From assembly GCF_005405585.1 (NCBI RefSeq), contig NZ_BJEQ01000012.1, positions 62,001 to 126,000 of the forward strand: a stretch of DNA of 64,000 nt, written 5' to 3'. Below are positions 705-18,459 of the stretch, one piece after another (position 1 is the stretch's first letter; every line of letters begins with the position of its first letter). Under the pieces are notes generated by a model. It was not told where the DNA came from, searched no databases, and saw nothing but the letters and a program-made list of their open reading frames with translations. This stretch comes from Agarivorans sp. Toyoura001. GTDB taxonomy: Bacteria > Pseudomonadota > Gammaproteobacteria > Enterobacterales > Celerinatantimonadaceae. The translations under genes and the position numbers were made by a program.

Positions 705-1697
705 ATGAAAAAACTGACCACACTATTGTGCGCAGTCGCATTAGCAGTTTCCGCCCCCGTTTTTGCCAAAACCGTTAAAATTGGTATGGCCATCGATGAC
801 CTTCGCCTTGAACGCTGGCAAAAAGATAGAGACTTTTTTGTCGAAAAAGCCGAATCGCTCGGTGCCAAAGTATTTGTACAATCTTCCAATAGCAATGAAA
901 CCGCCCAGATTTCACAGATTGAAAACATGATCTCTCGTGGTGTAGACGTACTAGTGATTATTCCTTACAACGGCAAAGTATTGTCTAACGTGATTGCTGA
1001 AGCCAAATCTGAGGGTATTCAAGTACTTGCCTACGACCGTTTAATTAACAATGCTGATATCGACTTCTACCTATCATTTGATAACGAGAAAGTGGGTGAG
1101 CTACAAGCCGAAGCGCTGATTAAGCATAAAGCTGACGGTAACTTTTTCTTGATGGGCGGCTCACCGGTTGACAACAACGCCAAACTTTTCCGCCAAGGTC
1201 AAATGAACGTACTGCAGCCGCTTATCGACAAAGGCGACATCAAAGTAGTGGGCGATCAATGGGTTGATGGCTGGTTAGCTGAAAACGCACTAAAAATTAT
1301 GGAAAACGCCCTAACCGCTAACGACAACAACATTGATGTAGTGGTTGCCTCTAATGACTCTACCGCTGGCGGTGCAATTCAAGCATTAGACGCACAAGGT
1401 CTAGCAGGTAAAGTATATATATCGGGTCAGGATGCTGATTTGGCTGCGAGCCGCCGCGTAGTAGCGGGTACTCAAACCATGACGATCTACAAGCCAATTA
1501 AACTACTGGCAACTACCGCCGCTGAACTTGCTGTACAAATGGGTAACGGCCAAATGCCAGAAGCTAACTCAAGCTTAAACAATGGCACTAAAGACGTTCC
1601 TTCATTCTTACTTACACCGATTCCAGTGGATAAATCTAACATCGACCAAACGGTAATTGCCGACGGTTTCCACACTAAAGCCGACGTTTACCAATAA
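705..1697 (+). CDS. xylF: D-xylose ABC transporter, periplasmic binding protein
   Basis: This is a 330-residue periplasmic protein with a clear signal peptide (residues 1-21, cleavage after VFA). It belongs to the sugar-binding periplasmic-binding-protein family of which XylF is a member, and length and pattern match XylF. The segments MAIDDLRLERWQKD near the N-terminus, NDSTAGGAIQAL and ISGQDAD are characteristic. It would bind xylose and deliver it to XylH/XylG encoded just downstream. A strong hairpin separates it from xylG, which usually lets the binding protein be made in excess. Specificity for xylose is inferred from family resemblance and operon order. Confidence 0.9.
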   Translation: MKKLTTLLCAVALAVSAPVFAKTVKIGMAIDDLRLERWQKDRDFFVEKAESLGAKVFVQSSNSNETAQISQIENMISRGVDVLVIIPYNGKVLSNVIAEAKSEGIQVLAYDRLINNADIDFYLSFDNEKVGELQAEALIKHKADGNFFLMGGSPVDNNAKLFRQGQMNVLQPLIDKGDIKVVGDQWVDGWLAENALKIMENALTANDNNIDVVVASNDSTAGGAIQALDAQGLAGKVYISGQDADLAASRRVVAGTQTMTIYKPIKLLATTAAELAVQMGNGQMPEANSSLNNGTKDVPSFLLTPIPVDKSNIDQTVIADGFHTKADVYQ

Positions 1698-1724
1698 AAA
1701 CGCAGCACTATTCACTATGCAGTA

Positions 1725-1756
1725 AAAAAGGGTGGGGCCAACGCCCCGCCCTTTTT
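1725..1756 (+). terminator. xylF-xylG intergenic hairpin (partial terminator)
   Basis: A 14-bp stem (1725-1738 with 1743-1756) with a CAAC loop contains a GC-rich core, one T-G pair and a run of five T at its 3' side. It lies between xylF and xylG and probably terminates part of the transcripts or protects the xylF mRNA 3' end. Confidence 0.8.
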
Positions 1757-1770
1757 ATTAGGAGTTAAAG

Positions 1771-3294
1771 ATGAGCCAAAGTAGCTTATTGATGATGTCT
1801 GACATCGTTAAAAAATTCTCCGGAGTGATTGCGCTAAATGGGGTTAATTTCAATTTAGAACGCGGTGAAGTGGTATCACTTTGCGGCGAGAATGGTTCTG
1901 GTAAATCCACCTTAATGAAGGTACTTACTGGCGTTCACCCCCATGGTAGTTACGAAGGACAAATTATTTACAAAGGCGAGCCACTGGTTTCGCATAGCAT
2001 TAGAGACAGCGAAGCAAAAGGCATCGCAATTATTCACCAAGAACTCACCTTGGTGAAAGAGCTGTCGATACTTGAGAATATTTTCCTGGGTGCTGAAATC
2101 ACTCACTATGGCGTGTTAGATCACAGCGCGATGTTTAAACTAACAGAAGAGCTGTTGAACCGAGTCAAGCTAGATGTGTCACCCGATACCGTGATTCGAG
2201 AGTTAGGTGTTGGCCAGCAGCAATTGGTTGAAATTGCTAAAGCCTTATCTAAAAACGCCGAAGTGTTGGTGTTAGATGAACCCAGCGCACCGTTAACTGA
2301 ATCCGAAACTCGAGTCCTGTTAGATATTGTAAAACAGCTGCGCAGCGAGGGCGTTAGCTGTGTTTACATCTCCCATAAGCTCACCGAAGTGAAAGAAATT
2401 TCCGATCGGATTTGTATTATTCGCGATGGCGAACACATTGGCACTCAAGATGCCGAACGTATGAGTACCGACGACATTATTAGCATGATGGTAGGTCGCG
2501 AGCTTAAACAACTGTTCCCGCGTGAAGAACACCCCATTGGCGAGGTTATTTTGAAAGTGGGGCCGGTAAACGCCCAACTCAGCAAAAGCGCCAACTTAAA
2601 ACAAGTCGATAATGTCAGCTTTAGCTTACACAAAGGCGAAATTTTGGGTGTTGCTGGTTTGGTAGGTTCTGGACGTACCGAGTTAATGCAGTGTTTATTT
2701 GGCTCTTACGAAGGCATCTATAAATGTCCGGTAGAGTTAGATGGTAAACCGATTAAAATTCGCCATAACCGCGATGCGCTAAACCACGGTATTGCCATGG
2801 TGCCGGAAGACCGAAAACGTCACGGTATTATCCCTATTATGGGGGTTGGCCAGAATATCACCTTAGCCGGTTTGAATATGTTTAGCGGCCTAGGTCAAAC
2901 GGTGAATGAATCGGCTGAACATGCCTCTATAAACCAATCAATCCAACGCTTAAAAGTAAAAACAGCTTCACCTGAATTAGCCATTAAAAGCCTCAGCGGC
3001 GGTAACCAACAAAAAGCCATTTTAGCTAAGTTTTTGTTGTTAGAGCCGCGCATTTTGATCCTCGATGAGCCCACTCGCGGCATCGACGTAGGCGCAAAGT
3101 ATGAGATTTATAAGCTGATGTACCAGCTGGTTAAACAAGGGATTAGCATCATTATGGTGTCATCTGAATTGCCTGAAGTACTGGGCATTAGTGACCGCGT
3201 ATTAGTGATGCACGAAGGAAAACTAAAAGGCCTATTAGACAATCAAGACCTGAGCCAAGAAATGGTGATGGACTGTGCATTGGCCGAGGAGTAA
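1771..3294 (+). CDS. xylG: D-xylose ABC transporter, duplicated ATPase
   Basis: This 507-residue cytoplasmic ATPase has two ABC domains, as in all sugar-type CUT2 importers. The first has Walker [10 protein letters not shown] (about residue 40), an atypical signature ELGVGQQQ and Walker [10 protein letters not shown]. The second has a degenerate Walker [10 protein letters not shown] and the canonical LSGGNQQK and [10 protein letters not shown]. It powers XylH. The start follows AGGAG with normal spacing and the stop lies four bases before xylH. Confidence 0.93.
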
Positions 3295-3298
3295 GCAA

Positions 3299-4477
3299 AT
3301 GTCGAGTCAAGAAACTACCATCACCAGTACCGAAGCTAAGGGAAGCCTGATGAGCAACTTAAAGAAAATGAAGTTACAAGTATTGGTGATGTTTGGCGCT
3401 ATTGCGGTAATCATGTTGTTCTTTTACTTCGCTACAGAGGGCAGCTATTTAACCCCACGTAACATTTCAAACTTACTACGCCAAACCGCCATTACCGGCA
3501 TATTGGCAATTGGCATGGTGTTTGTCATTATCTCCGCCGAAATCGATTTGTCGGTGGGTTCAATGATGGGATTATTGGGCGGCGCAGCAGCCATTATGGA
3601 TGTGTGGTGGGAATTACCGCTACCTTTAACCATTATTCTCACCTTAGGTGCAGGCTTTTTGCTAGGCCTTTGGAATGGTTGGTGGGTAGCCTACCGCAAA
3701 GTTCCTTCATTCATTGTGACGCTAGCAGGCTTGCTCGCCTTTAGGGGAATACTGATTGGAATTACCGGCGGCAGCACCGTTGCGCCAACCACCGCCGACA
3801 TGGGCATTATTGGCCAAAGTTATTTGCCTGATATGTTCTCAATGATTACCACGGTGGGCGCACTCGCGGTATTTTTTGCCTGGCAGGGTAAGCTGCGTAA
3901 AAATCGCACCGAGCACAAACTGACTAACTCACCAGTAAGTGGTGATATCTTTAAGTTTGGCTTAATCGCTATTTTTGCCCTGGGTACAGTGTTATTGCTT
4001 AATGACTATCGCGGCGTACCCACCCCGGTATTGTTATTAGTGGTACTGATGTTTATCGCCGCATTTATGGCTAAGAAGACCGCTTTTGGACGCCGTATTT
4101 ATGCCATTGGTGGTAACTTAGAAGCTAGCCGTTTATCGGGCATTAATGTAGAACGCACCAAGCTAAGCGTATTTGCCATTAACGGTTTGCTAGTGGGTGT
4201 AGCCGGGCTTATTTTGGCCTCGCGCTTAGGTGCTGGTTCACCATCTGCGGGTACGGTTGCAGAGTTAGATGCTATCGCGGCCTGTGTAATTGGCGGTACC
4301 AGTTTAGCGGGCGGTGTGGGTACTGTTTTTGGTGCGGTAATGGGCGCATTTATTATGGCCAGCTTAGACAACGGCATGAGCATGATGGACGTGCCGACCT
4401 ATTGGCAGTCTATTATTAAAGGCAGTATTCTACTGCTTGCTGTATGGATGGACGTTGCCAGTAAAAAACGCGCATAA
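3299..4477 (+). CDS. xylH: D-xylose ABC transporter, permease
   Basis: This 392-residue inner-membrane protein of the BPD_transp_2 (RbsC/XylH) family forms the xylose channel. The ATG at 3299 is chosen over an in-frame upstream codon because GAGGAG precedes it at good spacing and it leaves xylG intact. Conserved segments [12 protein letters not shown] and the C-terminal [20 protein letters not shown] are visible. A roughly 70-residue insertion with a charged stretch ([13 protein letters not shown]) in the middle is typical of XylH compared with the shorter RbsC. It is the last gene of the operon, followed by a terminator. Confidence 0.93.
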
Positions 4478-4788: not shown

Positions 4789-6507
4789 CTAACCAATAAG
4801 ATCCAAATCAAAATAACTATATTGATTTCGACCGCTAGATTTGGCTTTATACATCGCCGCATCTGCATTACGAATCAGCATTTCAGGGTCGGTGCCGTTA
4901 GCTGGGTAAAGACTAATTCCCACGCTGGCATACACCGGTTGAATATGTACACCTAAGCTCACTTCCTGGGCTAAACGGCGTAATACGGTGTCTACCACTT
5001 CAGAGGCTTCGTCTTCGTCGATAGACTCCAACGCTAACATAAACTCGTCGCCGGCAAAGCGGGCGACCGCATCTTCAGCGCGCACCACATCTCGTAATAC
5101 CTTTGCCACTTCTTGTAGCAGATGATCGCCAGCTTCATGACCGAGATTGTCGTTAACTTGTTTGAAGTTGTCTAAATCGATAAACACCACGGCTAGGCCA
5201 CTTTGTTTGCGCTGAGCGCGATTAATCGAGATTTTTAACTGCTCCAAAAACAAACCACGATTGGGCAAGCCCGTTAAGCTATCGTGGCTAGCCATGTGCC
5301 GCAGGTTCACCTCATTGCGCTTTAGCTCTTCAATTTGTTTATTAATTTGCTGCGACATTGCCCCAAAAGTTGTGGCAAGTAACCCTATTTCGTCTTTACG
5401 CTGGCTAGGCAGCAACCTTTTAGCAGGCAAATTCCCCGTGGAAAATGCCTTAACAGCCACCACCATATTACGAATGGGCTGAGACAATACCTTGGCGAAG
5501 AGTAATGAAGTCAGCAAACCCAATAAACTTAGGGCTAAACACACCTTAATCATTGAGCCGGCCAATGAATCGATAATATTGCTCAAGGTAGGCAAAGGGC
5601 TTACCAAAGCTAAAACCGCTAATTTTTGACTAGAAGCAGGACCGTAAAACAAAGGAGTAAACGATACAGCTCGCTCGTACCTAATCGCAGCAGATGGGTC
5701 CAAAACAAAAGTACGCGGCTGAAAATCACTAAACAACGCTTCCATTTGAGGGAAATCACGCTGCATCAAATAACGATGGCCATAGTGAAAACCAAACTGC
5801 TTGTCGGGATTGGGATTAACCAGATAATCGCCCTTCTGGTTCGCTAAATAGATTTCGACTCCAGAAGGTAAATCGGCTTGCAGCAAACTAAAGAGATTTT
5901 CTAAACCTACATTCACTACCACTAAGCCAAGAGCTTTACCGCCACTAAATACCGGCGATGCCACTTTTAAGGTTGGCTGATGCTGACCAAGCTCAACGCC
6001 TTTTTCGTTATGAATATCAACGTCAGACAAATAGCTGTCTCCGTCACCTAAACGAAGGGTGCGAAACACATAAGGGTAGTGGGCTTTTTCTTCTAGCTGT
6101 TCTGTTTCAATGGCAATTAAGCCATCACTTAAGCGATCCACCCTAATCAGCTCTTGTCCAAAATTGTCAGCACCAATAAAACGAAGTTGAAAGTAGGAGT
6201 TATTAAGTTTGAGTTTTTGTTTAAAGATATCGGTTAGTTGCTTCGCCAGCAGCGGTTTGTTTGAAGATTGAAAGTATCCGGCAGTTTGTGGAATTGAAGC
6301 CAGAAATAGTACATCTTTGGCGATCTCGTTAATGCTGTGATTAAACTCACGCGAGAGAATATGGGTAGTCGTAGCAAGTTCACGCTCAGCGCTTTCAGCC
6401 AATAGTTCTCTGCTTTCATGGTAACTAACGGTAGCGGTGACCACCGAAGCCAAAATACCAAACATCGCAAACCATAAACCAAAACGCAGCGAAATTGAGT
6501 TGATCAT
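4789..6507 (-). CDS. membrane diguanylate cyclase (dCache-HAMP-GGDEF)
   Basis: This 572-residue protein would make cyclic di-GMP in response to a periplasmic signal. It has a transmembrane segment at about 8-28, a large periplasmic dCache-type region (about 30-310), a second membrane segment (about 315-337), a HAMP domain and a C-terminal GGDEF domain. The active-site motif is AGDEF, a tolerated variant, and an inhibitory-site RAED lies five residues before it. No EAL domain is present. It overlaps the upstream binding-protein gene by four bases (ATGA), so translation is coupled. This suggests that the binding protein is its ligand receptor, as for NspS and MbaA in Vibrio cholerae, although MbaA also has an EAL domain. 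Confidence 0.9.
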   Translation of the reverse strand: MINSISLRFGLWFAMFGILASVVTATVSYHESRELLAESAERELATTTHILSREFNHSINEIAKDVLFLASIPQTAGYFQSSNKPLLAKQLTDIFKQKLKLNNSYFQLRFIGADNFGQELIRVDRLSDGLIAIETEQLEEKAHYPYVFRTLRLGDGDSYLSDVDIHNEKGVELGQHQPTLKVASPVFSGGKALGLVVVNVGLENLFSLLQADLPSGVEIYLANQKGDYLVNPNPDKQFGFHYGHRYLMQRDFPQMEALFSDFQPRTFVLDPSAAIRYERAVSFTPLFYGPASSQKLAVLALVSPLPTLSNIIDSLAGSMIKVCLALSLLGLLTSLLFAKVLSQPIRNMVVAVKAFSTGNLPAKRLLPSQRKDEIGLLATTFGAMSQQINKQIEELKRNEVNLRHMASHDSLTGLPNRGLFLEQLKISINRAQRKQSGLAVVFIDLDNFKQVNDNLGHEAGDHLLQEVAKVLRDVVRAEDAVARFAGDEFMLALESIDEDEASEVVDTVLRRLAQEVSLGVHIQPVYASVGISLYPANGTDPEMLIRNADAAMYKAKSSGRNQYSYFDLDLIG

Positions 6508-7544
6508 GGTAGCGCCATTGTTTGTAAGGTTTTACCACTTAAAATATTTTCCCAATAATCAGTTCTACGCTGGTTATCCTCTACTTGCTCTAGCCAAATA
6601 ATCTTATCTTCAGCCACACTGCGAGTATCTTGCACAATGGTATTGGCTAAACCTTGGCGCTCGGTAAGCAACTCACTCACCCAAGGCTCTAGGGTAAAAT
6701 TAATCCACTGATGGGCTAAATCTCGGTTTTGTACACCATTCGACAATGCCCAGCAGTCTAACCAAGCTAAAGCGCCCTCTTTGGGAATGGTGTAACCAAT
6801 GTCTGCGCCTGAATCTTGCAGCTTTTTGAGCTGTTGAGCGCCGTAGTTGGCAAACACGAGTGCCACAGATTCTTGGCTAAAGTAATCGAGCGCTTCTTCT
6901 GGTGAGCTATAAAAGGTGAGAGCATTACGACGCAATGCTAATAAACGCTCGGTACTAGACGTAAACTCTTGATTGGTTTGCTGAAAAGGGTTGCTAACAC
7001 CGGCAACCAGACCTGCTAAGGAATAGTTATGTGCGCTGCCATTATAAGCTAACACCTTTCCTTGATATTGCGGATCCCATAATACCTGCCAAGACTCTGG
7101 CGGTGTATCGAAGTAATTTCGATTATAAATCAAGCCCATTTCAGAATAGGTATAAGGAATGGCATAAACTTTATCACCACGTGTTGCTCCGGGGATGTCA
7201 CTTAAACGACTAAAGCGAGGGAGTTGCTTGGTGACGTTATCAATACTGCTTGGCTCGATAGCCACAGCCAAATTAGCATCAATATAACGTTGTAGTTCGG
7301 CGGTATTTACCGCAAAAACGTCGTAATCAGCACCTTGTTTATTGCCCATTCTCAGCCACATTTCATCATCATTGGTGATGTAACTCACCTTAACTTTCAC
7401 TTTGTGGCGTTTTTCAAAGGCAGCAACCATGTCTGCGTCGGCATAACCCGGCCATGCCAGTACTCGCAAATCAACTTGTTCTGCCGCAATCGGTAGGCTA
7501 ATTAAACTGAACCATAAACCCAAGGTAGATAAAACTCGCAACAT
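6504..7544 (-). CDS. orphan PotD/NspS-type polyamine-binding protein
   Basis: This 346-residue periplasmic protein has a signal peptide (residues 1-21, cleavage after IAA) and belongs to the spermidine/putrescine-binding family. VLAWPGYADADMVAAFEK near the N-terminus, AIPYTYSEMGLIYN and the C-terminal ALSNGVQN region are typical. No permease or ATPase gene is nearby. Instead the stop codon overlaps the start of a diguanylate cyclase. This arrangement matches the NspS-MbaA norspermidine sensor of Vibrio cholerae, so a sensing rather than transport role is likely. The ligand cannot be told from the sequence. Confidence 0.85.
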   Translation of the reverse strand: MLRVLSTLGLWFSLISLPIAAEQVDLRVLAWPGYADADMVAAFEKRHKVKVKVSYITNDDEMWLRMGNKQGADYDVFAVNTAELQRYIDANLAVAIEPSSIDNVTKQLPRFSRLSDIPGATRGDKVYAIPYTYSEMGLIYNRNYFDTPPESWQVLWDPQYQGKVLAYNGSAHNYSLAGLVAGVSNPFQQTNQEFTSSTERLLALRRNALTFYSSPEEALDYFSQESVALVFANYGAQQLKKLQDSGADIGYTIPKEGALAWLDCWALSNGVQNRDLAHQWINFTLEPWVSELLTERQGLANTIVQDTRSVAEDKIIWLEQVEDNQRRTDYWENILSGKTLQTMALP

Positions 7545-16632: not shown

Positions 16633-18459
16633 CTATACGTCGAGATCAAGTACCGCTCTATTGCGCCCTTGGTGCTTGGCTTTATACAAACATGTATCGG
16701 CCATTTCCAGTAAGTTGGTTGGGTCCAGCACATCATCTGGCTCCACCAATATACCGCCAAGGCTAATGGTTAATACTTCAGAAATCTGCGAGCCTTGGTG
16801 CTCAATATTTTGCGCCGATACCTCTTGTACTATCCGCTCTGCCATTTGCGGCAAATCTTGCTGATTAACATCGGAGAGCAATATCGCAAACTCTTCCCCA
16901 CCGACTCGCGCCACACAATCTTCACTGCGTTTAACTACGGAAGATAGCGCTTTAGCTACCAGCTTTAAGGCCTCATCACCTTGCAGGTGACCATAGCGGT
17001 CGTTATAGGCTTTAAAGTAATCAATATCGGCCATCATTACTGCAATTTGCGAGCGATGACGCCTAGCACTAGCAATAGCGCGGTTTAATTCCCGTTTAAA
17101 CGGTCGGCGATTCACCAAGCCTGTGAGTTCGTCGGTTTCTGCTAATACTTGCAAGCGCTCATTCACTTGCAGTAACTCATTTTGTAGTCGTGCCATGGCT
17201 AAGGCATTTTTCTCTTGAATTAACAAACCGCTAATTGCCGCGGCAAACTGCCCAAGTAGCGCAATTTGGTGCTCGTCCCACAGCGCGCAGTAGCTCAAAC
17301 TGACACAATTAAGCAGGCCAAAGGCTTTGTTGCCATCACTTAACGGAAAACCGGCAAACGACTTAATACCATGCTGTTTAAGCAGCTTATATTCTTCTTT
17401 AGCTTGGCGCTTAATCTTCTCTACATCGTTCACAACAATCGGCGCAACATTCACTAAACGCCGCTTAAGTTCACTTAATTGGCTTAGATCTATCGGCTCT
17501 ATAGGCGCTAAATGACCGGGCACACTCCATACGTCTCGGTAAATAGCCTGCTGGCGTTCAAACTCTAATATCACCACTCGCTCCACTGAGAACAAACTGC
17601 CAATCGCCGACGTTGCGCGCTGCAGTAGAGCTTTAGAATTTCTTGGGGTTTGATTAAGAAATGATAGCGATATCTCAGACAGCAACTGGTTGGCTTCGGT
17701 TTGCCAATTTAACAGTGCGGTACGTTGTTCTACAGTTTCTTCTAGTATCTGACGGTGCTGATGAAGCTGTTGCTCGGCTTCTAGCCGGGCATCTAAACCA
17801 CGTTGCAAACGTTGCTGCAATTGCTGCATTGAGCTGGCCACTAAACCAATCTCATCATTACGCTGAATCAGCTTGCTAGGCAACTGTACTATTTGTTGCT
17901 CTTCGGTAAATATTTGATCGGCTGCCTCAGCCAAGCGGCGTAAGTCGCCAGTCACTAAGCGCCCAAGCAAAAGCAATATAATCAGGCTCATCAAAAAGGT
18001 TTTTAAGCCGTTAGTTAACAGTATCACCAAGGCTTGTTCGGCGATGTCTTGCTTTATTAACGACAAGTCTAAACCAACGGTTAATTGGCCAATATCTCGT
18101 TCACGGTAACTAAGCATATAAACGTAGAATTTTTGGTTTAAATTGGCATCTCCAATACCCAAACTAATGCCATCGCCAGAGCTAAGGTTAACCGTGGCAA
18201 CATATTGCTGCTGTACAAACCCCTGCAGTAGCTCATCTAATAGCTGATAGTCTACATCCCAAATAGCCCGTTCTATGGCCGCCATATTGGCTTGATTGTA
18301 TTCATCAACCCAGCGCTCTGCATTTTTCACCGCACCAGAAAAATTGAATGCAAGTTGCACTGCCACCGAGACCAGCGCAAATAGGGTGCTGGCACCCACA
18401 ATTAAAATGAGTAATCTTTTGGCAATGGGAGTGTGTAGCTTGAAAGAACCTTTCACCAT
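16633..18459 (-). CDS. membrane diguanylate cyclase (periplasmic sensor-GAF-GGDEF)
   Basis: The chosen start is ATG 18459, because GAGGTG lies seven bases before it; an in-frame TTG at 18477 lacks this. The 608-residue product has membrane segments at about 14-36 and 150-172 around a short periplasmic domain. A HAMP-like/coiled-coil linker, a GAF domain (about 265-410) and a C-terminal GGDEF domain follow. The active site reads GGEEF and an RSED inhibitory site lies five residues earlier, so it should make cyclic di-GMP and be product-inhibited. It begins seven bases after the stop of a periplasmic binding-protein gene, its probable sensory partner. Confidence 0.9.
   Translation of the reverse strand: MVKGSFKLHTPIAKRLLILIVGASTLFALVSVAVQLAFNFSGAVKNAERWVDEYNQANMAAIERAIWDVDYQLLDELLQGFVQQQYVATVNLSSGDGISLGIGDANLNQKFYVYMLSYRERDIGQLTVGLDLSLIKQDIAEQALVILLTNGLKTFLMSLIILLLLGRLVTGDLRRLAEAADQIFTEEQQIVQLPSKLIQRNDEIGLVASSMQQLQQRLQRGLDARLEAEQQLHQHRQILEETVEQRTALLNWQTEANQLLSEISLSFLNQTPRNSKALLQRATSAIGSLFSVERVVILEFERQQAIYRDVWSVPGHLAPIEPIDLSQLSELKRRLVNVAPIVVNDVEKIKRQAKEEYKLLKQHGIKSFAGFPLSDGNKAFGLLNCVSLSYCALWDEHQIALLGQFAAAISGLLIQEKNALAMARLQNELLQVNERLQVLAETDELTGLVNRRPFKRELNRAIASARRHRSQIAVMMADIDYFKAYNDRYGHLQGDEALKLVAKALSSVVKRSEDCVARVGGEEFAILLSDVNQQDLPQMAERIVQEVSAQNIEHQGSQISEVLTISLGGILVEPDDVLDPTNLLEMADTCLYKAKHQGRNRAVLDLDV

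Follow-up and report, generated by a model that had tools for sequence, protein, structure and literature searches.

What does a periplasmic solute-binding protein (SBP) do when the gene behind it encodes a membrane diguanylate cyclase? To our knowledge, input signals are known for few such cyclases. The question is raised by a gene pair in a 64,000-nucleotide stretch of Agarivorans sp. Toyoura001 DNA (the window, meaning the whole stretch analysed), for which an earlier note, made from the letters alone, had proposed an orphan polyamine-type binding protein feeding a pure cyclase, a variant of the NspS-MbaA system of Vibrio cholerae.

Organisation of the locus

The open reading frame coordinates and the 4-nt ATGA overlap were confirmed, both genes lying on the minus strand (Table 1). 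No transporter for the SBP adjoins the pair at this locus, and the neighbouring Xyl-type ABC genes have a binding protein of their own, which makes the SBP an orphan as the earlier note meant the term.

Table 1 Features of the SBP-cyclase locus (window coordinates)
Feature	Position	Strand	Basis
D-xylose-type ABC genes	705-4477	+	NCBIfam scores over cut-off for XylF and XylG; monosaccharide permease match; genes run towards the pair
Membrane diguanylate cyclase, 572 aa (TM, dCache-type sensor, TM, HAMP, GGDEF)	4789-6507	-	ORF, Pfam, AlphaFold
GGDEF domain, residues 406-562	4822-5292	-	Pfam, E 5e-50
Active-site motif AGDEF, residues 485-489	5041-5055	-	Sequence
Product-inhibition site RxxD (RAED), residues 476-479	5071-5082	-	Sequence
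HAMP linker, residues 336-389	5341-5502	-	Pfam
Periplasmic sensor, residues 24-310, PF21623/double-Cache fold	5578-6438	-	Pfam, structure match
ATGA overlap, 4 nt (SBP stop/cyclase start)	6504-6507	-	ORFs and sequence
Periplasmic SBP, receptor-linked subfamily, 346 aa	6504-7544	-	ORF, Pfam, AlphaFold, PDB match
Signal-peptide-like N-terminus of SBP, about residues 1-21	7482-7544	-	Boundary by eye; low-pLDDT helix 2-14

The SBP matched the Pfam family SBP_bac_8 (E 5e-31), and its single-chain AlphaFold model (pLDDT 93.7, pTM 0.88) was compared with known structures by Foldseek, followed by a second look at the matches. The top PDB match was YdcS (6nlp; Z 33.5, 310 residues aligned, rmsd 3.2), with PotD (4eqb; Z 31.9, 306 aligned, rmsd 2.6) and PotF also matched, in agreement with the PotD-like fold expected earlier.

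In the cyclase, hydrophobic segments at residues 5-23 and 311-329 frame a periplasmic part that scored over the PF21623 cut-off (E 6e-19), while its dCache_1 match remained below cut-off (36.9 bits vs 45). Within the single-chain model (pLDDT 90.1, pTM 0.58) the sensor resembled the Vibrio double-Cache domains 2p7j_A (Z 25.3, 254 aligned, rmsd 2.3) and 3lid (Z about 25). The proposed dCache-HAMP-GGDEF architecture therefore holds, as do the intact inhibitory site and, no EAL domain being found by Pfam in the window protein, the pure cyclase output. All invariant GGDEF-domain columns, including the catalytic residues, are present; by these residues the protein is assigned to the diguanylate cyclase (GGDEF) class, with c-di-GMP synthesis as its predicted activity. 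A further GGDEF domain (window positions 16654-17160, minus strand) was seen as a local profile match only.

Distribution and pairing

The pair is kept in all seven Agarivorans genomes searched. Gene-pair conservation, suggested as a check at the outset, was examined in 394 genomes of the host order: the SBP was detected at E 1e-40 in 12 of them, its partner bearing the same sensor. That partner was GGDEF-only in ten carriers, and in G016 and G023 the sensor is joined to GAF-GGDEF-EAL.

Scanning 84,980 species genomes returned 320 SBP relatives, the best 80 of which, from Beta- and Gammaproteobacteria, were kept. Among these best 80 of 320, a receptor with a PF21623-type sensor directly follows the SBP in 76; of the other four, L081 stops at a contig end, and L097, L123 and L125 have SBPs lacking such a neighbour. 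The sensor match begins 3-57 nt past the SBP stop in 75 of the 76, the exception (L093) having a broken SBP frame. By local profiles, 60 of these 76 partners scored as GGDEF-only (L111 being cut by a contig end) and 16 carried EAL; the GGDEF-only form is thus the commoner one in this set and not an odd version of NspS-MbaA. Of the 73 partners in the same set whose site was readable, 70 have RxxD and 72 the GGDEF signature; those of L122 and L129 are broken or cut short, and the motif of L066 (AGDAF) is degenerate. Evenly drawn class-wide searches located the family in 1 of 369 genomes and, for the class of G764, in 4 of 289; an evenly drawn phylum search gave 16 of 398 genomes with 17 places, partners being looked at for all places except those in G800, G970, G1031 and G1076.

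The distribution of the module is patchy. Its presence in every genus member searched, together with the same gene order in 76 of the best 80 (of 320) loci, nevertheless confirms that the pairing is a real, widespread module and not chance. On the SBP tree described below, EAL presence changed at least four times, two of the changes being forced by starred branches, which suggests that the output domain was exchanged while SBP and sensor seemingly stayed together. As a separate observation, the cyclase-less family SBP of L097 (5947-8700) lies tail to tail with a probable PAS chemoreceptor.

The binding pocket compared with polyamine-binding proteins

According to a study of PotF, its first-shell residues D39, E185, D247 and D278 are at least 96%, and W37 100%, conserved in 250 homologs (PMC8666671). 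We read the corresponding positions in 88 receptor-linked SBPs, 74 of them from the scan's best 80 (of 320) and 14 from elsewhere (L081, L093, L096 as a copy of L054, L097, L123 and L125 were left out); many are near relatives, so that the counts are not independent. In all 88 the D39 position is Gly, the E185 position His and that of the aromatic-box W244 Asn; the D247 position is acidic in none, and the D278 position (D263 in the window SBP) is Asp in every one. N80, H172, N233 and D263 are likewise present in 88 of 88, and the window SBP retains W31, W261 and D263, which belong to the polyamine pocket. Relative to the PotD/PotF class, the window SBP thus has the fold and, of the four carboxylates, D278 only. 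The loss of the D39, E185 and D247 carboxylates and of W244 throughout the set argues against the polyamine-type ligand of the original proposal.

The suggested comparison with NspS and PotD turned out against that proposal as well: only 3 of 12 pocket residues of the window SBP are identical in PotF (about 23% identity overall), PotD and two NspS homologs. The latter (L168 and L171, so called by gene order, SGDEF motif and size, not from a named V. cholerae sequence) adjoin SGDEF-EAL genes and keep most of the amine-contact carboxylates, being acidic at positions 185 (Asp or Glu), 247 (Asp) and 278 (Asp). PotD has Ser at the D247 position. Of the host's own PotF-like proteins, those encoded on contigs C3 and C19 are acidic at all four carboxylate positions, and a more distant one on C26 keeps D278 alone. 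Two polyamine-utilisation probes found no match near 12 relatives.

Nearest relatives and their gene context

An SBP tree was built by a quick method from 85 of 106 sequences; 28 of its 82 inner branches were unresolved, the outgroup did not form one side of a branch, and one sequence (Avit) was placed near the ABC-linked rows. The receptor-linked family formed one group (SH-aLRT 99) of 70 SBPs, 67 with a partner and three without, which joined five ABC-linked SBPs (95), with PotD and PotF outside. These nearest relatives are alphaproteobacterial SBPs whose genes precede those of an ATPase and two permeases, with no cyclase; G1075 (25% identity, with a transporter) was excluded from the ABC-linked group. 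Four of the ABC-linked SBPs (L159, L160, L162 and L164) are identical to the window SBP at 9 of 12 pocket positions and at 42-45% of positions overall, and N80, H172, N233, Y234, Q237 and W265 are common to at least four of the eight ABC-linked SBPs. Position 135 differs, being acidic in 82 of 88 receptor-linked SBPs and Ser in seven of the eight ABC-linked ones, so that ligand specificity may have shifted.

The ABC-linked loci L159, L160, L162, L164, L174 and L177, drawn from two families only, carry genes for an IlvD/EDD dehydratase, GguC/AraD1 and an SDR (XylB-like) dehydrogenase at the SBP, and five of the six also an aldose 1-epimerase. Where scored, the dehydratase reached 870.6 bits for L-arabinonate dehydratase, close to the cut-off of 882, GguC exceeded its cut-off and the dehydrogenase was near D-xylose 1-dehydrogenase (354.9 bits, cut-off 400). 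Gene clusters of this type that include sugar ABC transporters are described as pentose pathways in PMC6336799. Five more distant loci gave weaker signs: L142 has genes for altronate dehydratase and RbsD/FucU, L143 a member of the mandelate-racemase family with a gluconolactonase, L163 a gluconolactonase, L161 a GFO/IDH/MocA gene and L176 GMC oxidoreductases.

As part of the explanation favoured below, the receptor-linked SBPs and those of the aldose-oxidation operons would descend from a common ancestor. Shared ancestry and a shared pocket would make a sugar-like ligand the most likely one, and with moderate confidence we propose a monosaccharide or close derivative, for example a pentose or an aldonate, and not a polyamine. 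IlvD/EDD, GguC, epimerase and XylB-like genes were found near none of 87 family loci outside the genus, so that the ligand is argued from the sister group only. An aldehyde dehydrogenase match occurred near one of these 87 loci, and a tyramine oxidase gene lies upstream in a Phaeobacter locus.

Two other potential clues to the ligand were set aside. XylG stands beside the pair in all seven genus genomes and XylF in six (the stretch L033 ends short of it), but XylF and XylG were matched in none of the 87 loci outside the genus, and we therefore treat the XylFGH adjacency as one lineage's arrangement. Clustering of neighbouring open reading frames, judged by looking over the listing, returned mainly lineage-specific synteny (e.g. 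ten Pseudomonas-like loci). At L175 (5442-8440), an SBP 80% identical to that of L159 is flanked by two similar small proteins that look secreted, and no transporter or cyclase was found in its neighbourhood.

Co-variation of SBP and sensor

In 65 pairs of the GGDEF-only form, chosen without EAL forms or broken loci, SBP distances correlated with those of the sensor at r 0.90 and with those of the GGDEF domain at 0.74. The partial correlation was 0.78 for SBP and sensor given GGDEF and 0.30 for SBP and GGDEF, the former exceeding the latter in 300 of 300 taxon resamplings; with the sensor cut to GGDEF length the values were 0.76 vs 0.35. Conserved pairing and co-variation, as looked for in an SBP-coupled receptor, are thus both found for the family of the window pair. 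The co-variation fits contact between SBP and sensor, although it is no proof of it.

Proposed mechanism and rival explanations

The explanation we favour, judging it a little more probable than all others combined, is that an ABC-type SBP with a sugar-like ligand was captured, docks on the dCache sensor and gates a feedback-inhibited cyclase. The secreted SBP would close on a small ligand and, once loaded, dock on the dCache-type periplasmic domain of the co-encoded cyclase, a physical contact that we infer. Docking would alter the sensor dimer, and HAMP would relay the change to the GGDEF dimer, which would make c-di-GMP under RxxD product inhibition; the ligand-loaded SBP would presumably raise cyclase activity. 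More tentatively, and with confidence falling somewhat short of even, the locus may represent a widespread receptor family in which a dCache cyclase captured an ABC-type sugar-binding protein, c-di-GMP synthesis is set directly by a monosaccharide or sugar acid in the periplasm, and the sensor was joined to EAL outputs more than once.

Against the captured-SBP explanation stand the three family SBPs with no such receptor adjoining (L097, L123 and L125) and the ability of dCache domains to bind ligands unaided. Should the dCache domain itself bind the signal, as such sensors of c-di-GMP enzymes do directly in the examples SpdE and rpHK1S-Z16 given in PMC8846402, the SBP would be unliganded or merely a stabilising subunit; this we consider very improbable, since a pocket that is intact and so highly conserved (N80, H172, N233 and D263 in 88 of 88) argues that the SBP still binds something. 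A receptor of the same build might instead bind another small ligand (an opine, amino acid, GABA-like compound or organic acid), its pocket having shifted after capture. Agropinic acid, mannopine-type opines and GABA are ligands of SBPs with the same fold, position 135 is unlike that of the sugar-operon group, Methylomonas is among the hosts, and the tested sugar genes are not nearby save for the one aldehyde dehydrogenase match; this reading is nonetheless rather unlikely given the 9 of 12 pocket identity with the aldose-oxidation-operon SBPs and the six residues common to at least four of the eight ABC-linked SBPs.

For an NspS-MbaA-type polyamine receptor with pure cyclase output speak the PotD/PotF fold, the retained W31, W261 and D263, and the V. 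cholerae precedent as described in PMC8967002 and PMC9993111. We hold it to be improbable: the D39, E185 and D247 positions, whose conservation in PotF homologs is at least 96% (PMC8666671), are acidic in none of the 88 SBPs and W244 is Asn in all, the two NspS homologs keep their acidic residues, both utilisation probes stayed without a match near the 12 relatives, and the host genome has separate PotF-like systems. A PotD-like fold alone should hence not be taken as the mark of a polyamine sensor. With one identifiable ligand-binding partner in the periplasm and just one output enzyme, and with natural variants that either carry a phosphodiesterase or lack it, the module offers a clean way to ask how an external nutrient sets c-di-GMP; the variants also let the effect of an output swap on the response be asked.

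Comparison with known systems

Like NspS-MbaA of Vibrio and Sinorhizobium, the window pair places the gene for a PotD-fold SBP immediately ahead of that for a membrane c-di-GMP enzyme with HAMP and GGDEF. It differs in an SBP only 17-22% identical (22% by BLAST with L171; 17% and 19% aligned), below the at least 30% used in an NspS ortholog search as given in PMC8967002, and in its pocket. The sensor is unlike that of MbaA, as the earlier note had held: the MbaA periplasmic part gave BLAST E 0.7 against it and matched neither PF21623 nor Cache. An EAL domain is present in MbaA and RxxD absent, the reverse of the window cyclase with its RAED. Searches of G000 and eight further carriers found no MbaA-type sensor. 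From these sequence differences the window pair is classed as not a member of NspS-MbaA.

LuxP-LuxQ, in which an SBP docks on a periplasmic Cache/PAS-like receptor domain, works by description as the window pair would, its output being a hybrid histidine kinase, unlike the cyclase here. PotD, PotF, SpuD and YdcS have the fold in common with the window SBP, which differs from PotF in overall sequence and in pocket as given above. In Salmonella, the dCache diguanylate cyclase STM1987 needs the periplasmic binding protein ArtI for its L-arginine response; we liken it by the description in PMC8846402, and both binding protein and ligand are different. In that paper, a review of inputs to c-di-GMP signalling, SBP_bac_3 is the only member of the binding-protein clan studied in c-di-GMP proteins, and the sugar input named is EIIA-Glc with PdeS. 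No paper on this SBP-cyclase pair was found in the open-access literature (most subscription journals lying outside that scope), and the family is apparently uncharacterised, SBP-coupled c-di-GMP receptors as a kind being already known.

Several further arrangements were recorded. L053 (5303-8073, genome G105) holds a pair whose output is GGDEF-only; G105 gave no match to an MbaA-type sensor, and two genus relatives of G105 carry NspS-MbaA-like pairs. At L169 (4541-8002) an NspS-like SBP directly precedes a GGDEF-EAL protein whose motif is seemingly degenerate (GGNQF). In L170 (4149-7166) and L173 (4107-7179), from two genomes of genus g24, a GGDEF match comes after a Pot-type transporter operon that has two binding proteins in tandem.
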